In this document: piece after piece, positions 3,089 through 19,648 of the stretch
Numbering within the stretch: position 1 is the first letter of the stretch
How the letters are laid out: every line of letters starts with the position of its first letter
Source: a virus
Length of the DNA stretch: 27,782 bases
Strand: one strand, 5' to 3'
IMG/VR virus record: IMGVR_UViG_3300043775_000771
Span: 1-27,782 of that record
The notes under the pieces: generated by a model
What the model saw: only the letters and a program-made list of their open reading frames with translations
What the model was told of the DNA's origin: nothing
Database searches by the model: none
Program-made: the position numbers and the translations under genes

Positions 3089-4309
3089 CTACGCGACAAA
3101 CGCCGCGTCGCTTTTCCCGTTGTTGCAGTCGTGGCAAAGAGTCCACAGGTTGCTGCTGTCATTTGCCCCTCCGCGAGCAACTGCAGTTCGGTGATCTACC
3201 TCCAGCTTCACGCCGTCGCGCTGACTCCTGCCGCACAACTGGCAGGCAAATTGGTCGCGACTCAGGATCGCGAATCGCAGCTTCTTGGAAATAGACGCAC
3301 GCCGAGCTGAAGCTGACTGACTGCACCGATCTGCGTCGCCAACTTCTTGCGCCAAAAATCCTGTGGGAACGTCAGACAGGTGCTTTGGAATAACGACGCA
3401 TCCAGACCGCATTTTCAAGACTGGCTTTTGGCGACCTTCGCCGGTCCAAAACAACGCCATGTGCGGATTTCGCCAGTGCGGACTGCAGTCTTTCTGCTCC
3501 TGAAGCTTCTTTCCTAGGTCGAACCCACGGCCAACAAGTCGTGCGGCGCGATCTTCTAGCCAAGACTTCGCAGCGTGGTCCGCGCTTTCGTATCTGCTGA
3601 GATCCTTTTCTAAAATCGCAGGAGTTATGAGGTCATTTCCGTCAGCCACAAGAGCGATGAACTGAATCAGCCTCAGCACCGTTTCTTCCTGTTCCGGAGT
3701 GGCCTCGCCAAGAAGAGATTCCCGCTTCTGCCCAGACTTTCTCTCGCACAGAATAATTAGGTCAGACACGGTTTCTGTTGCCGCTCCATGAAGCATTGCG
3801 GTGAACGTCTTGGAGACATCTGGCTTTCGGCGCGTGTCGTCAAAAGATGCAGCGAGACGCAATCTGCCGATCAGCCTGCAGGCCTCGCGAGAACGTTCTG
3901 ACATCCACTCAAGTTCAGGCGTCTTCTTCTCGAAAGACCACCCAAAAGCGTGCCGATTCCTGCAGTTGGGGGAATGAACGAGAACTGTTTTGATTCCGTG
4001 CGGCTCCATGCCAACAGGAAACCGCAGAAGACACGGCGTGACAGGCAAGCAAATGTCTGCCCACTGGATTTGCGGGTTAACTTTCCGCGCAAGCTCAATC
4101 GCTATCGGGTAAACGTTGTAGTAGGGCCTTTCAATGTTGCGCCAAAGCCTTTCAACGATTGGGCTGCAAAGGCCAAGAATGCTTCCGGCTGCGCGAATCG
4201 CCTCATATGACATGGCGGCAGCGTGTGACCGTATGATCCGGTCTAGGAACTCTTCGTTGGTGCCACGCTCGCCACGTGGGCGGCACGGCACAAAGTCATG
4301 GAATCGCAT
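3089..4309 (-). CDS. Large protein with unknown N-terminal region and C-terminal HNH nuclease
   Basis: The 406-residue product ends in a clear HNH endonuclease domain: RFAILSRDQFACQLCG (Cys356, Cys359), LEVDHRTAVARGG (the DH of the ββα-metal core at 372-373), Asn387 in SSNLW, and a second Cys pair (392, 395) before NNGKSD. The first about 335 residues match nothing I recognise. They contain an HTH-like opening (MSYEAIRAAGSILGLCSPIV), RPYYNVYPIAIELARKV, and a Cys/His-containing stretch around 113-121. The start is the ATG at 4309, in a TGATG overlap with the upstream winged-helix gene and preceded by GGAGGAAGG, rather than the upstream in-frame TTG. An early-expressed DNA endonuclease is inferred. 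Possible roles are host DNA attack, homing, or recombination processing beside the annealing protein, with the N-terminal part as a targeting domain. Confidence 0.82.
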   Translation of the reverse strand: MRFHDFVPCRPRGERGTNEEFLDRIIRSHAAAMSYEAIRAAGSILGLCSPIVERLWRNIERPYYNVYPIAIELARKVNPQIQWADICLPVTPCLLRFPVGMEPHGIKTVLVHSPNCRNRHAFGWSFEKKTPELEWMSERSREACRLIGRLRLAASFDDTRRKPDVSKTFTAMLHGAATETVSDLIILCERKSGQKRESLLGEATPEQEETVLRLIQFIALVADGNDLITPAILEKDLSRYESADHAAKSWLEDRAARLVGRGFDLGKKLQEQKDCSPHWRNPHMALFWTGEGRQKPVLKMRSGCVVIPKHLSDVPTGFLAQEVGDADRCSQSASARRASISKKLRFAILSRDQFACQLCGRSQRDGVKLEVDHRTAVARGGANDSSNLWTLCHDCNNGKSDAAFVA

Positions 4310-4620
4310 CACGCCTTCCTCCAAATCACCGCCATCCGCCCGCTGCTCGTCCGCCTGGTGCCCGCCTCCACGATCAGGCCGCGCCGTGCCAACTCAATCC
4401 GCCTGGGCCTGACGGTGCTCGCGTTCATCTCGAGCTCGTTCGTGATTTCTTCGTCAGTGCTGGGCGTGCGACAGATCAACTCGTAGACGCGCCGCTGCAT
4501 CGCGTTCAGCGTTGCCGGCCCCAGCGAGTCCGCAGCAGCGGCAGACGTGGCCGAGCCGTTCACGCTGGGCGCTGGCGTTGCGAACAGCGGCAGCGGTGCT
4601 TCCTTGTAGTAGTCGCTCAT
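4309..4620 (-). CDS. Winged-helix transcriptional regulator-like protein
   Basis: The 103-residue product has a disordered Pro/Ala/Ser N-terminus (1-35) followed by a winged-helix fold: NAMQRRVYELICRTPSTDEE, ITNELEMNASTVRPRRIELA, RRGLIVEAGTRRTSSGRMAV. The pattern 'T..ei...l.....stvrpR..eL...G.i......R.t..Gr...vw' is typical of small phage HTH proteins that sit beside recombination and replication genes. It is preceded by AAAGGACGCC, the leader motif shared by several early genes here, and is coupled by a TGATG overlap to the HNH gene. DNA binding is likely; whether it represses, activates or guides the HNH partner is unknown. Confidence 0.75.
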   Translation of the reverse strand: MSDYYKEAPLPLFATPAPSVNGSATSAAAADSLGPATLNAMQRRVYELICRTPSTDEEITNELEMNASTVRPRRIELARRGLIVEAGTRRTSSGRMAVIWRKA

Positions 4621-4779: not shown

Positions 4780-5016
4780 TTAGTCGCTGGACTCCGGTGG
4801 TGGAACGCAACTCACGGGCGTGTGCTGAATGCTGGGCTCGTACTTCTCAAGCCTTCGCAGCGTGTCGCTGAGTTCACGGCGAAAGACTTCGGCCATGAGT
4901 CGCTCGCGGGCCACGGCGTTGGCTTGGGCCAAGGCCCAACTTGCCATGCGTGGCAAGTGCTGCCGCTCGAGGTAGTCCGCCACAACCTTGGCGTCGATCA
5001 CGAGTGGCTCGCTCAT
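4780..5016 (-). CDS. Small hypothetical protein coupled to the annealing protein
   Basis: This 78-residue, helix-rich, charged product (MSEPLVIDAKVVADYLERQH..., RRELSDTLRRLEKY) has no recognised domain. Its ATG overlaps the stop of the Bet/RecT gene by four bases, so it is probably made in step with it. In Red-like systems the neighbour is often an exonuclease, but this protein is far too small and shows no nuclease residues. A recombination accessory role is only a positional guess. Confidence 0.6.
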   Translation of the reverse strand: MSEPLVIDAKVVADYLERQHLPRMASWALAQANAVARERLMAEVFRRELSDTLRRLEKYEPSIQHTPVSCVPPPESSD

Positions 5017-5702
5017 GCGTGCACCTCGTGCTCGGCGGCCTCGTGGGGGAACTCCTGGCCACGGTCTTCGGACTCAACGGTCAACGTCGGCACTTCCTGC
5101 TTGCCGGAAAACCTGCGGTGCTGCAGCGGCTCGGCGTGGTGGTTCACCGTCACGCTCACCTGCGGCTGTCGCATCCGGTCGGCCTCGTCTGGATCAACGA
5201 TGCCGCTGAATCCGAAGGCGTAGCGGATGGCCTGAATGGCTGCCTTGTGGCGAAGCATTCGGGCTGGCCACTTCTTCCATGGCTCCGTGCCCTGGCGGCA
5301 CTCGGCCAGGTACTCGGTGACCTCAACCGGGTGGCTGCGGTCCTTCCGGTGCACCTGGGCCGTGATCGCTACCAGCTGCCCGTCATCGCCCAGCCTGTCC
5401 ACGAACGTGATGCCGTCGTAGGCCGCGTGGTTGTTCGCCATCGTCATCCACCCGTCGATGCCAACGATCGGCTGGATGCCGCCGGCCCGTGTTGGGAAGG
5501 CGTAGATTTCCTTCGTCACCGGGTTCAGCCCGTACTCGTTGGCCACCAGCAGGAAGGCAGCGAACTGCTCCTTTGTGGCCTTGTCGCAGCCACAGGTGGC
5601 ACGCACCGTGGCCTCAAAGGCCGCTGGCTCCATGCCAAACTTGGTGGCCATGCTCAGCAAGATGCTCTTGCGGTCGTTCGTGTTTGCAATCGTCGTGGTC
5701 AT
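5013..5702 (-). CDS. bet: Bet/RecT-family single-strand annealing protein
   Basis: The 229-residue product carries the Bet family core: FLLVANEYGLNPVTKEIYAF (51-70), GGIQPIVGIDGWMTMANN (74-91) and EPWKKWPARMLRHKAAIQAI followed by RYAFGFSGI (140-168), then DPDEADRM. These proteins coat and anneal single-stranded DNA in lambda Red-type phage recombination. The tail after about 180 is unstructured, acidic and His-rich, a usual site for contacts with a partner SSB or exonuclease. The start at ATG 5702 has AAAGGGA four nt upstream. No companion Exo/RecE-type nuclease is recognisable nearby; the large HNH protein two genes downstream is the only nuclease candidate in the operon. Confidence 0.9.
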   Translation of the reverse strand: MTTTIANTNDRKSILLSMATKFGMEPAAFEATVRATCGCDKATKEQFAAFLLVANEYGLNPVTKEIYAFPTRAGGIQPIVGIDGWMTMANNHAAYDGITFVDRLGDDGQLVAITAQVHRKDRSHPVEVTEYLAECRQGTEPWKKWPARMLRHKAAIQAIRYAFGFSGIVDPDEADRMRQPQVSVTVNHHAEPLQHRRFSGKQEVPTLTVESEDRGQEFPHEAAEHEVHA

Positions 5703-12534: not shown

Positions 12535-13401
12535 CTACTGCTGTGTTGGCGTTCCGAAATATTGCTGAAAGTTCACGGCCTTGTGCACGCGGCGAACCAG
12601 AATAGTTGGTGCCCCGCTTGAGATGGCACCTTCCGTCGTGAGCGGCTGCGGATTGCTAGACGGCACCTTGTCGCCGCTGTCGGTGTCGATGACGTAAGCC
12701 CGTTTCTTGGTGCCGCCGTCCAGGTAATTCCACCCGACGTTGGGCAGCTGGAGCGGCCACCCGTCAGGGCGATACTCCAGCGTCACCTCGACTTGCCAGT
12801 AGCGGACCTCGACTTCGTTTACCACCTCGACGGCAGGCGTGGCTGCGATGCCCGAGCACTTCCATGTGTACGGCTCAGCCCCAAGGTACGAAGACGAGTT
12901 TACGGCGTTCGTAACTGTCGTGGCCAACCCGTAGTCAAACGTCTGGCGGTTGCCGCTGATGGACGCTTGCAGCGTCGAAATATCCGCCTGCACGCCCTCA
13001 AAGAAATCCTGAGCAGAGTTCTGGAGGGGCGTAAGAACGTCGCCTTCCTCGTAGTAGTAGAGCGCCGGCACTTGCAGGCCCCCGGTGCTCCACTTCCAGA
13101 TGTCTGCTCGAGCCAGCGGGTTAGGGTCTACGTTCTGCTGCTTGGGCAGTTCGTAGTCCCACGTCACTTCATAGTGCCAGCGTGAGCCGTTGTAGTTGGC
13201 GACGCCAACATTCATGGCCTTGCAGTATGACGCCTCTGGGTGGGCAGCCAGAAACGAAATGCCAGGAGCATTGGCGATTGCTGTCTGAGGAGTCGCCGGG
13301 TCGTCCACCTCTACGACGAACTTGCGCTGAAAGGTGGGAGCTTCGCCAAACTTCCGCGAAGCGGCGACGGTGGCGAGCTCGGTGTAGGAAAGGATGGCCA
13401 T
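12535..13401 (-). CDS. Hypothetical tail protein (after tape measure)
   Basis: The 288-residue product starts in a TGATG overlap with the tape measure stop. Its content is beta-rich and aromatic (YNGSRWHYEVTWDYELPKQQ, PALYYYEEGDVLTPLQNSAQ, VRYWQVEVTLEYRPDGWPLQ, GGTKKRAYVIDTDSGDKVPS), with an Arg/His C-terminus. In siphoviruses the gene after the tape measure encodes the distal tail or hub-type protein. The position supports a tail-tip role, but no Dit signature is visible to me. Confidence 0.65.
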   Translation of the reverse strand: MAILSYTELATVAASRKFGEAPTFQRKFVVEVDDPATPQTAIANAPGISFLAAHPEASYCKAMNVGVANYNGSRWHYEVTWDYELPKQQNVDPNPLARADIWKWSTGGLQVPALYYYEEGDVLTPLQNSAQDFFEGVQADISTLQASISGNRQTFDYGLATTVTNAVNSSSYLGAEPYTWKCSGIAATPAVEVVNEVEVRYWQVEVTLEYRPDGWPLQLPNVGWNYLDGGTKKRAYVIDTDSGDKVPSSNPQPLTTEGAISSGAPTILVRRVHKAVNFQQYFGTPTQQ

Positions 13402-15092
13402 CAGGCGGCTGCCCCCAAGATGTCCACCTTTTCCTGCTGCAAGGCCCGAAGCTCGCCACGGATCTCGTCAAGCTTCTGGGTTTGCTTTCGGTATTCGGCA
13501 ATGGCGGGATCTTCGCGGCCGGTGGCCAGGGCTAGGAACTGGGCCATGCCCTCGCTAGAGCGAACGTCGTTGGCTTTCAAGGCTTCGTTGGACTTGCCGC
13601 CAAGGGCGGCGGCACGCTCGGAAAGAATGTCGCCAATGTCGCCACGCTTCCCGGCCATCTTCTCGTCTATGGCTGCAGCCTTTTTAGACGCATCTTCCTG
13701 TCGCTTGCGTGCGTCTTCGGCGTCTTTCTTCGCCTTAGCGTCCGCAGCTGCGGCTTCCCTTGCAGCCTTATCGTCTCGTTGCTTCTGTGCCCTTGCTCGC
13801 TCACGCTCAGCACGGGCCTCTGAGTCGTTCATTCGCTCTCGGGCACGGTTGACAGCACGCCCTGCCGGGCCTTCCGGCGCGCTCTGCGAAGAGTTGCCGC
13901 CAAACACTGCGCGGCTAGCTGCTGCACCGGCGTTAGACGCGGCACCTTCCATCTCTGCAGCGTTTTGCTGAGCTTGTTTTTCGGCGTTTGCCGACAAGTC
14001 TTTGCCAAACTTCTCAAGGTCACTGGAAACCCACGAGCCGATGCCTTCAAGGAACTTGCCTAGCCCCATGGCCAACACGTTGCCAGCAATCTGAAACAGA
14101 TTGAAACCTGCCCGCAAAATCTCTGCGACGGCAGTGAACACGTTGCCGGTAAACTCAAACACAGAGCCAACTTCCTGCAGAGTCACACCAAAACCATCAA
14201 ACTGGGCTACGGCATTGTCAAAGATGCCAGCGAAGTAGTCCGCCACGTCTAGCAAGGCGTTGGAAATCGTGTCGGCAATGCCGCCGCCTTCGCCTCCGAC
14301 GTTGTTGAACTCTTCCACGAACGCCAGCAAGTCGTTAGCCAGCGACTCAACGACAGGGGCAAGGTTGCCAACCACGTTGCCGATGATGCCGTCAAAGGTG
14401 GCCTTCACCATGTCTAGGGCGTCATTCATGCCGCCGATGGCCTCTACTTGATCATCACCCACGATGGCCCCTAGCCTTCGCATACGCTCTTCAACTTCGG
14501 CAAGGTTCTGATTCATCAACGGCAGCAACTCAACGCCGGCCTTGCCAAAGATTGAAACGGCGGCGGCTGCTCGCTCCGCTGGTGTTGGCAATGCCGAGAT
14601 GGCGGCCTGGATGGCCTTAAACTGATCTTCCGGTGCCATTGCCTGCAGTTGCTGAAAGTCCAGCCCAAGCTTGGTAAACGCTTCGGTTTTTCCGCTTTCT
14701 GCTGCTTGGCCGATTTCCACGCCAAGCTTTTGAACGGCTCCGGTTACGTCATCAATGCCTGAGAGCTTGGCGGCCATCTGCAACGCTTGCAGCGACTCAA
14801 CGCCAATGCCCGTGCGTTGTGCCAAGTCGCTCATGGCGTCCACGCCTTGGGCAACATTGGCTGCGTAACTGCCAGCCGCTCGAGCAGCCGACATAAACGC
14901 ATCGGCGGCCATGCCAATGCCCTTGGCAACCACGGCCCCAATGGCGATGTTCTTGATAAGCGACAGGTCGCTGGAAGTTTTGCGGGCCTGATCGCCCAGC
15001 CGGTCCATCGCCTTGGCGGCTTGGTTGGCACCTGACACAACGCCGCCGGCGGACATGCTTGCCCGCATCGCCAGTGCCAGAGTTGTTGCCAT
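13401..15092 (-). CDS. Tail tape measure protein
   Basis: The 563-residue product has the composition of tape measure proteins: Ala-rich, almost wholly helical, with hydrophobic segments around 45-70 (IAIGAVVAKGIGMAADAFMS) and 330-350 (FQIAGNVLAMGLGKFLEGIG), and a long charged coiled-coil region about 415-475 (RERMNDSEARAERERARAQK). It follows the tail chaperone pair as expected. The residues TGIGVESLQALQMAAKLSGI match a common tape-measure sequence. At about 1.5 angstrom per residue the tail would be roughly 80-85 nm, on the short side. Its start is three nt after the frameshifted chaperone's stop. Confidence 0.85.
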   Translation of the reverse strand: MATTLALAMRASMSAGGVVSGANQAAKAMDRLGDQARKTSSDLSLIKNIAIGAVVAKGIGMAADAFMSAARAAGSYAANVAQGVDAMSDLAQRTGIGVESLQALQMAAKLSGIDDVTGAVQKLGVEIGQAAESGKTEAFTKLGLDFQQLQAMAPEDQFKAIQAAISALPTPAERAAAAVSIFGKAGVELLPLMNQNLAEVEERMRRLGAIVGDDQVEAIGGMNDALDMVKATFDGIIGNVVGNLAPVVESLANDLLAFVEEFNNVGGEGGGIADTISNALLDVADYFAGIFDNAVAQFDGFGVTLQEVGSVFEFTGNVFTAVAEILRAGFNLFQIAGNVLAMGLGKFLEGIGSWVSSDLEKFGKDLSANAEKQAQQNAAEMEGAASNAGAAASRAVFGGNSSQSAPEGPAGRAVNRARERMNDSEARAERERARAQKQRDDKAAREAAAADAKAKKDAEDARKRQEDASKKAAAIDEKMAGKRGDIGDILSERAAALGGKSNEALKANDVRSSEGMAQFLALATGREDPAIAEYRKQTQKLDEIRGELRALQQEKVDILGAAA

Positions 15093-15095
15093 ACG

Positions 15096-15392
15096 TCACC
15101 GCTTCAGCTTTGAGAGTTCCGCTGCGATCTGTGCGCCAGTCATTGGCGGCCGTTCGATCGGCATGAAATCTTCTTCGTTTGGTGGCCTGCCCTTTGTGTA
15201 TGGGGCCAGAGTCGCCGCCACTATTCGCCCTGTCTGCCGCCAGCCTCCGAGATCCAAAGGTGCCACGTACCTGTGCATTGCCAGCCAACCCTTGAACTCA
15301 GCTACGCTCATCGTGCGGCCAAGTTCCTCAACAGTTCGCCCCAACGTCCCGGCCAGCAGATACACAAAGGCATCCAGCGGCCGGGCTAGGAG
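15096..15392 (-). CDS. Tail assembly chaperone T extension (made by -1 frameshift from the G frame)
   Basis: This frame is open from the slippery site to its stop. Its first convincing start (GTG 15365) lacks a ribosome site. Read after a -1 shift it adds 98 residues beginning LLARPLDAFVYLLAGTLGRT and containing MSVAEFKGWLAMHRYVAPLD then a basic helical stretch and RPPNEEDFMP. The 'Ms..Ef..W......P.....r......A.......... .dFmp' layout matches lambda gpT/DUF4035-type extensions. The joint G-T product would be 208 residues and would bind the tape measure during tail tube polymerisation, while G alone is made in excess. Confidence 0.75.
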   Translation of the reverse strand, partial: LLARPLDAFVYLLAGTLGRTVEELGRTMSVAEFKGWLAMHRYVAPLDLGGWRQTGRIVAATLAPYTKGRPPNEEDFMPIERPPMTGAQIAAELSKLKR

Positions 15393-15398
15393 TTTTTT
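15348..15398 (-). promoter_or_regulatory. -1 programmed ribosomal frameshift signal
   Basis: A slippery heptamer A AAA AAC (15392-15398) is in the zero frame of the G gene (codons GGA AAA AAC TCC TAG). Six nt later CCCGGCC (15379-15385) can pair with GGCCGGG (15348-15354) to form a 7-bp GC stem with a 24-nt loop, a standard stimulator at a standard distance. The zero-frame stop TAG (15386-15388) is inside the spacer. Confidence 0.82.
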
Positions 15399-15721
15399 CC
15401 GATGTCCTCAATCTCCTTCTCGTCTAGGTCGTTGTGCCGCTGAGCAATCTTGAAAAGCCGCGCCCCAACGGTGCCGCTCAGTCCCTTGAGTTGCTCGCTG
15501 GTGAAGAGCGGCTTTCCGTCCGCGTCAACTAGGCACTTGCACAAATACCGCGTGCGGTAATCGTCAATGCCCTCTCCCTTGGCTCGCAGGCACGCGAGTT
15601 CCCACGCCTGCAACTCGCCAAGCGGCATCGTGCGAACCCACACGTCGCACTTCCACTCAGGCACGTTGACCTTGAGAGACTGCGACTGATCAGCGGCAAG
15701 GATTTCTTCAGCAAGCCCCAT
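15386..15721 (-). CDS. Tail assembly chaperone G-like protein
   Basis: The 111-residue product (MGLAEEILAADQSQSLKVNV..., then YLCKCLVDADGKPLFTSEQL) has the 'l..dl.G.plft.e....l' core of short tail chaperones that precede the tape measure. It ends EIEDIGKNS at a TAG just after an A AAA AAC slippery site, so about one ribosome in many should continue into the T frame. It starts in a TAATG overlap with the second tail-tube gene, ensuring coupled translation. The function is to coat the tape measure and recruit tube subunits, by analogy with lambda gpG. Confidence 0.8.
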   Translation of the reverse strand: MGLAEEILAADQSQSLKVNVPEWKCDVWVRTMPLGELQAWELACLRAKGEGIDDYRTRYLCKCLVDADGKPLFTSEQLKGLSGTVGARLFKIAQRHNDLDEKEIEDIGKNS

Positions 15722-18678: not shown

Positions 18679-18890
18679 CGGCGCTTTCTCCTGCGCGGTG
18701 CGTCTGCGGTTTCCACGTCGCGGCGCTCAACGGCCGCCACCTCGAGCAGGGGCTGCTCCTCGACGTGATTGACGGCGTAGCCATGCAGCACAAGGCTCTT
18801 GGCTGGCCCCCTGTCCATCACGATCACGTCACCGCGTCTGTACGCTTGGTAGGGCCGAACGAAACGGATACGGGATTGGTCATCTCTCAT
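18675..18890 (-). CDS. Small hypothetical head-region protein
   Basis: The 71-residue product (MRDDQSRIRFVRPYQAYRRG..., then GPAKSLVLHGYAVNHVE, ending in a run of Arg/Lys) shows a small beta fold of the type 'ir.vrp...y.rGd.i....g.a..L...G.A' seen in short phage proteins located before connector genes. It is coupled to both neighbours by four-base overlaps. The basic tail could bind DNA or the capsid. No function is established. Confidence 0.65.
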   Translation of the reverse strand: MRDDQSRIRFVRPYQAYRRGDVIVMDRGPAKSLVLHGYAVNHVEEQPLLEVAAVERRDVETADAPRRRKRR

Positions 18891-19648
18891 GCGTTCATCT
18901 CCCCGTGTTCAATGCTGCCCCACGCCTCGGGCGGCCTGCGGCCACCCTTGTTCCAGTAGTCGCTGGGGCTCTGGTAGACGGGTTTGAGATCCCGGCCCGG
19001 CCAAGTGAACTTGAGTTCCGCGTGGCCAATGGCCACCTGCGGGGCAATGCCAAGTGTGTTGCCGGCGGCCTTAAACTGCGCCCAGAAGTGAATGTCTGGG
19101 TCGCGCCTTGAAACCTCACCCGGCGGCGCATCACCCCAATGCCCATCAGGACGTGGAGTGCCAAGAAACCACGGAGTGGGGGTCCGCTTGAGTGCTGACG
19201 AGCGAATGAGCGTGCAGCCAAAGTGGGCAGTTTCGACGGGCTGAATCACCGCCTCAAACCATGCGTTAGGCAGCTGCACCGTGCCAATGGTGCCGTCGTG
19301 GCCCTCGGGCGTGAACATGGGCACGCCCTCGTCACGCTTCGTCTGCAGCGGGGCCACAGCGTCGTACCCGCTGATCAGCGCCGCCGTCATCAGCCGTTGA
19401 ATGGTGTCGGCCTCGTACACGCTGTCGAAATCGACAACTAGAACCCAGTCAGTCCGTTCAATCATGTCCAGCAGGACACGATCTAGGCACTGTTCCCAGA
19501 ATGCACCCGTGAACTTGGTAGGGCGAATGTTCAGCGGCAGCAGGCTCTGCATCGTGCAGAAGAAGTTGTCTTGAAAGCCCAAGCGGGGCACAGAGAACGC
19601 CGCTTCGACTCGCAGATCGTGCTCGATGTTGCCTACGCGAAACTTCAC
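18887..19648 (-). CDS. Glycosyltransferase-like protein (GT-A fold, DxD) in the head operon
   Basis: The 253-residue product shows features of GT-A glycosyltransferases: a strand-helix start, TDWVLVVDFDSVYEADTIQR with the DxD motif DFD at 73-75 (nucleotide-sugar/metal binding), YDAVAPLQTKRD, HFGCTLIRSSAL (about 142-153), and a later DPDIHFWAQFKAAG segment (183-196) resembling the acceptor-side 'D.df...a..aG' of family 2 enzymes, followed by a His (209). No signal peptide or membrane span. It is separated from capsid genes by a hairpin but overlaps the next connector gene by four bases, so it is expressed with head-completion proteins. Transfer of sugar to a virion protein, DNA base or host glycan is possible; the sequence does not decide. 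Confidence 0.72.
   Translation of the reverse strand: MKFRVGNIEHDLRVEAAFSVPRLGFQDNFFCTMQSLLPLNIRPTKFTGAFWEQCLDRVLLDMIERTDWVLVVDFDSVYEADTIQRLMTAALISGYDAVAPLQTKRDEGVPMFTPEGHDGTIGTVQLPNAWFEAVIQPVETAHFGCTLIRSSALKRTPTPWFLGTPRPDGHWGDAPPGEVSRRDPDIHFWAQFKAAGNTLGIAPQVAIGHAELKFTWPGRDLKPVYQSPSDYWNKGGRRPPEAWGSIEHGEMNA

Follow-up and report, generated by a model that had tools for sequence, protein, structure and literature searches.

The question raised by this locus is whether a phage tail assembly chaperone gene and the open frame that overlaps its end are joined by a programmed -1 ribosomal frameshift, as are the G and T parts of the lambda tail chaperones, or whether the second frame is reached in some other way. 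The locus is found on the minus strand of a viral contig from IMG/VR (IMGVR_UViG_3300043775_000771), all 27,782 bases of which are referred to here as the window. The sequence evidence from the window and its relatives supports, as a prediction, a programmed -1 frameshift of the lambda G/GT kind, with a probability that we would place at about 0.93.

The phage is siphovirus-like, and the region is its tail module. The G gene (15386..15721, minus strand; 111 codons) has an ATG start that overlaps the stop of the gene upstream. It is followed in the -1 frame by the T segment (15096..15392, minus strand; 98 codons plus a stop at 15098-15096), the predicted C-terminal part of a G-T fusion, and just after T begins the gene for a tape measure protein of 563 amino acids (13401..15092, minus strand) that matches the PHROG tail length tape measure families with E-values down to 4e-22. 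Upstream are genes for head closure, tail terminator, neck and capsid proteins and then for protease, portal and terminase. The cassette sits between the tape measure gene and that of the major tail protein, the latter assigned by position only. Elsewhere on the minus strand of this phage contig are an ORF with DNA polymerase III beta-clamp domains (186-1361, E=4e-15), genes for a RecT family protein (5013-5702) and an HNH endonuclease (3089-4324) and, between the capsid and connector genes, a 253-amino-acid ORF (18887-19648) that is without a Pfam match and looks by eye like a glycosyltransferase. When GTDB genomes were searched for a host, neither the G-T alignment nor the terminase found a relative.

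An earlier note on this DNA had proposed a tail G/GT chaperone pair ahead of the tape measure gene, in which slippery site, spacer and structure agree, and had called for G and T to be aligned with known families. The gene position is as it described, and each element, when tested, was consistent with the proposal, to which relatives have added comparative evidence. In the family comparison G gave a full-length match to PHROG 344 (tail assembly chaperone; E=7e-19) and a weak one, under the cut-off, to Pfam Phage_TAC_13 (E=6e-4). When an AlphaFold2 model of G (pLDDT 75) was used in a fold search of solved structures, the best match was the HK97 tail assembly chaperone 2ob9 (probability 1.00, E=1.4e-3); a sequence search of the PDB with a G-T profile returned nothing relevant, so that the link to 2ob9 came from the fold search only. 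By its PHROG match and its predicted fold, the G product is a tail assembly chaperone. The T segment matches PHROG 337 (tail protein; E=1.3e-11), with the domain beginning at T residue 7, and Pfam Phage_tail_T from T residue 29, the latter match being under the cut-off in the window (E=0.005) and reaching 5.6e-8 among relatives. As the PHROG 337 domain begins ahead of the first plausible ATG, the -1 frame appears to hold a T-like domain that does not have its own gene start. Of 12 fusion sequences, 11 have a match to PHROG 14766, a single tail protein family of 224 amino acids; the range of that match, as given for the fusion of the window, is residues 58-151 and crosses the G-T junction at 110/111.

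The heptamer A AAA AAC lies in the zero frame of G at 15392..15398 (minus strand, read 15398-15392) and is followed by TCC and the G stop TAG (15386..15388), which bears out to the base what the earlier note had read. From the heptamer the -1 frame is open from 15392 to 15096, again as had been claimed, and the predicted fusion has 110 + 98 = 208 residues. The closest stop in the T frame upstream of the slip is a TGA at 15410-15408 and any -1 shift is therefore confined to a stretch of about 20 nt, within which AAAAAAC is the sole canonical heptamer. Across the 25 minus-strand ORFs there are eight in-frame canonical heptamers, and only the one at 15398-15392 is near a gene end, the others being at least 199 nt away from one. 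Stems of seven base pairs that are all GC and close a loop of no more than 30 nt are scarce, with only three on the minus strand, and one of these follows the heptamer. The arrangement of heptamer and stem exceeds chance.

Scans of IMG/VR for relatives of the cassette yielded 145 loci at which both parts are present; some of these are overlapping copies of one contig, and 60 distinct cassettes remain. Codon diversity was followed in 29 representatives that are less than 93% alike. In all 145 loci T is in the -1 frame relative to G. All 60 distinct cassettes carry the nine bases GGAAAAAAC without variation, while the G stop can be TAG, TGA or TAA and stands, in relatives, either directly behind AAC or after one further codon. 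Among the representatives the slip codons GGA, AAA and AAC show zero synonymous change, against a mean synonymous diversity elsewhere of 0.43 in G and 0.47 in T. Past the slip, minor-allele counts over codons 0-26 of the -1 frame are 76, 43 and 213 at codon positions 1, 2 and 3 respectively, a pattern which indicates that this frame evolves as protein from the slip onward. These relatives in practice refute the suggestion that a sequencing or assembly error, which typically shows as a shift of frame at a homopolymer, has split one ordinary gene, as the same frame relation recurs in all of the loci, from many independent metagenomes and with differing stop codons; an artefact of this kind is so improbable that it can be set aside.

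The structure downstream of the heptamer (15348..15385, minus strand) has as its outer part a 7-bp GC stem in which CCCGGCC (15385-15379) pairs with GGCCGGG (15354-15348). Stem and position are those first described, with a spacer of 6 nt between heptamer and stem, which fits the spacing of 5-9 nt for the structure in stimulated, dnaX-like bacterial -1 frameshifting. The loop had been given as 24 nt, and its length is right, but the loop itself pairs, so that the whole forms a near-continuous imperfect hairpin of 15 bp with a predicted energy of -24.2 kcal/mol. Dinucleotide shuffles give -12.3 kcal/mol (z -4.75), and in the 29 representatives the native fold is better than that of synonymous recodings, with a mean z of -3.2 and the weakest value, -1.6, in L139. 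The stem codons GAC, CGG and GCC are frozen in this set. Covariation is weak, with few events, because the stem hardly varies; one compensatory outer pair was seen, C-G in the window's group and A-U in most others. The case for a structure is therefore made from the synonymous constraint and the folding energy. A sliding fold profile along the gene was left out as evidence since its 42-nt windows cut the stem, and an Rfam search across the site returned no family. Taken over the relatives, the patterns of sequence change place slip site, hairpin and T frame under purifying selection.

A second candidate signal, a Shine-Dalgarno-like GAGGA(C/G) (15402..15409, minus strand), precedes the slip site by about 8 nt and might act as a stimulator in the manner of that in dnaX. 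The GAG codon 8-9 nt ahead of the slip has a synonymous diversity of 0.01 against a background of 0.43 in the 29 representatives, and GAGGA is present in most relatives; the L127/L128 group has CAAGA instead. Since some relatives lack it, GAGGA was not kept as a required element, and it would be an optional aid at most. In E. coli, A AAA AAC has been reported to slip far less readily than A AAA AAG (PMC5009743), a point that counts against the frameshift. Such weakness, should it hold with the tRNAs of the phage's own host, would suit a low ratio of G-T to G. A further reading, that two conserved stimulators, the GC hairpin and the GAGGA, drive the G-T frameshift and offset the weakness of the heptamer on bacterial ribosomes, is tentative and in our view rather doubtful. 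Were it true, the cassette would be a variant, stimulated as in dnaX, of a frameshift described as unstimulated in certain tailed phages.

Two other routes to a T product have to be weighed. The one that survives better, though still at long odds, is that T is translated independently, with no frameshift, from the in-frame ATG at 15311 or from a GTG at 15365. That T has no ribosome site was part of the original description and is mostly right, the PHROG 337 domain starting earlier than the ATG; it overlooked a GAGGAA about 12 nt upstream of this codon, with a predicted anti-SD energy of -6.2 kcal/mol. The ATG (15311-15309) is kept in 29 of 29 representatives and the Pfam match begins only at T residue 29, both of which would be expected of a start at this point. 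However, the GAGGAA is a weak motif at a long, poorly suited spacing and is weaker still in several relatives, and most of them have CCG in place of the GTG. The 27 codons between slip and ATG, moreover, are conserved as protein with an excess of change at the third position, and their residues fall within the PHROG 337 domain and contain two confidently predicted helices. An independent start would also leave the invariant heptamer and the hairpin unexplained. Less probable again is slippage of RNA polymerase on the A6 run, in which the addition of one A would yield the same frame and hence the same fusion, and for which invariance of the run would be equally expected. Six A residues are short for slippage by a bacterial polymerase, and slippage of tandem tRNAs better accounts for the in-frame C that never varies behind the run, for a codon phase of X XXY YYZ and for the conserved hairpin at ribosomal spacing.

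Under the programmed -1 ribosomal frameshift that is preferred here, most ribosomes would stay in the G frame as far as the TAG, yielding the 111-residue chaperone, and a minority would slip back by one base at A AAA AAC through tandem tRNA slippage and continue in the -1 frame to give a G-T protein of 208 residues. The GC hairpin 6 nt downstream would help this slippage, and the upstream GAGGA may possibly do so too. If the parallel with lambda holds, the tape measure protein would be coated by the G part, with the T part bringing in the major tail protein. We infer the slippage, its rate and these roles from the layout, the homologies and the selection described above. Frameshifting in tail chaperone genes is known and widespread in phages, and the cassette raises no new question of principle; its signal is unusually well conserved among relatives, and the comparative evidence, from 60 distinct cassettes with synonymous constraint, makes it a well-supported further case.

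For lambda, the partner of the G part is the tape measure protein and that of the T part is the tail shaft protein, the ratio being about 30:1 (PMC5009743). The cassette shares with lambda gpG/gpGT a chaperone gene before the tape measure gene, a -1 heptamer near the end of G and T in the -1 frame (PMC5009743), and the features of the lambda pair that were tested (chaperone, T domain in the -1 frame, X XXY YYZ heptamer near the end of G, gene position) were all found here. The slip site differs, being G GGA AAG in lambda (PMC7618472) and A AAA AAC here. In Streptomyces phage Dubu, genes 13/14, which encode a homologous G (31% identity) and precede the tape measure gene, carry the annotation of a tail assembly chaperone joined from two pieces; the Dubu heptamer is GGGAAAC, adjoining the stop, and differs from AAAAAAC, and folding of the 49 nt past the stop is no better than that of shuffles. 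Moraxella catarrhalis phage Mcat10 and its relatives share a homologous T (40% identity) and have AAAAAAC TCA TAG with a 7-bp hairpin just downstream. No frameshift is annotated in the Mcat10 record, and gene callers that miss such an event would annotate T separately, as has happened there. The Mcat10 hairpin differs from that of the window in having a tetraloop and then U7; with this U7 it directly follows AAAAAAC TCA TAG within the T frame (L150:1506-1529; z -4.99) and looks like an intrinsic terminator in the place where a frameshift stimulator would be. A AAA AAC is reported or predicted in Acinetobacter phage Loki, Caulobacter phage phiCbK and the haloarchaeal HCTV-2 (PMC5009743, PMC5313236, PMC3556154). 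In the passages concerning Loki gp12/gp13 and phiCbK gp93/gp94, AAAAAAC is the predicted slip site within the tail chaperone gene, as here, and that of Loki adjoins the stop, as in most relatives of the present cassette; these passages make no reference to a structure downstream (PMC5313236, PMC3556154). Certain tailed phages have been described without stimulatory signals (PMC5009743), whereas a conserved GC hairpin follows the site here; in this the cassette is a clear instance of a phage tail-chaperone site with a conserved hairpin downstream, and a modest refinement of what is known of such sites.
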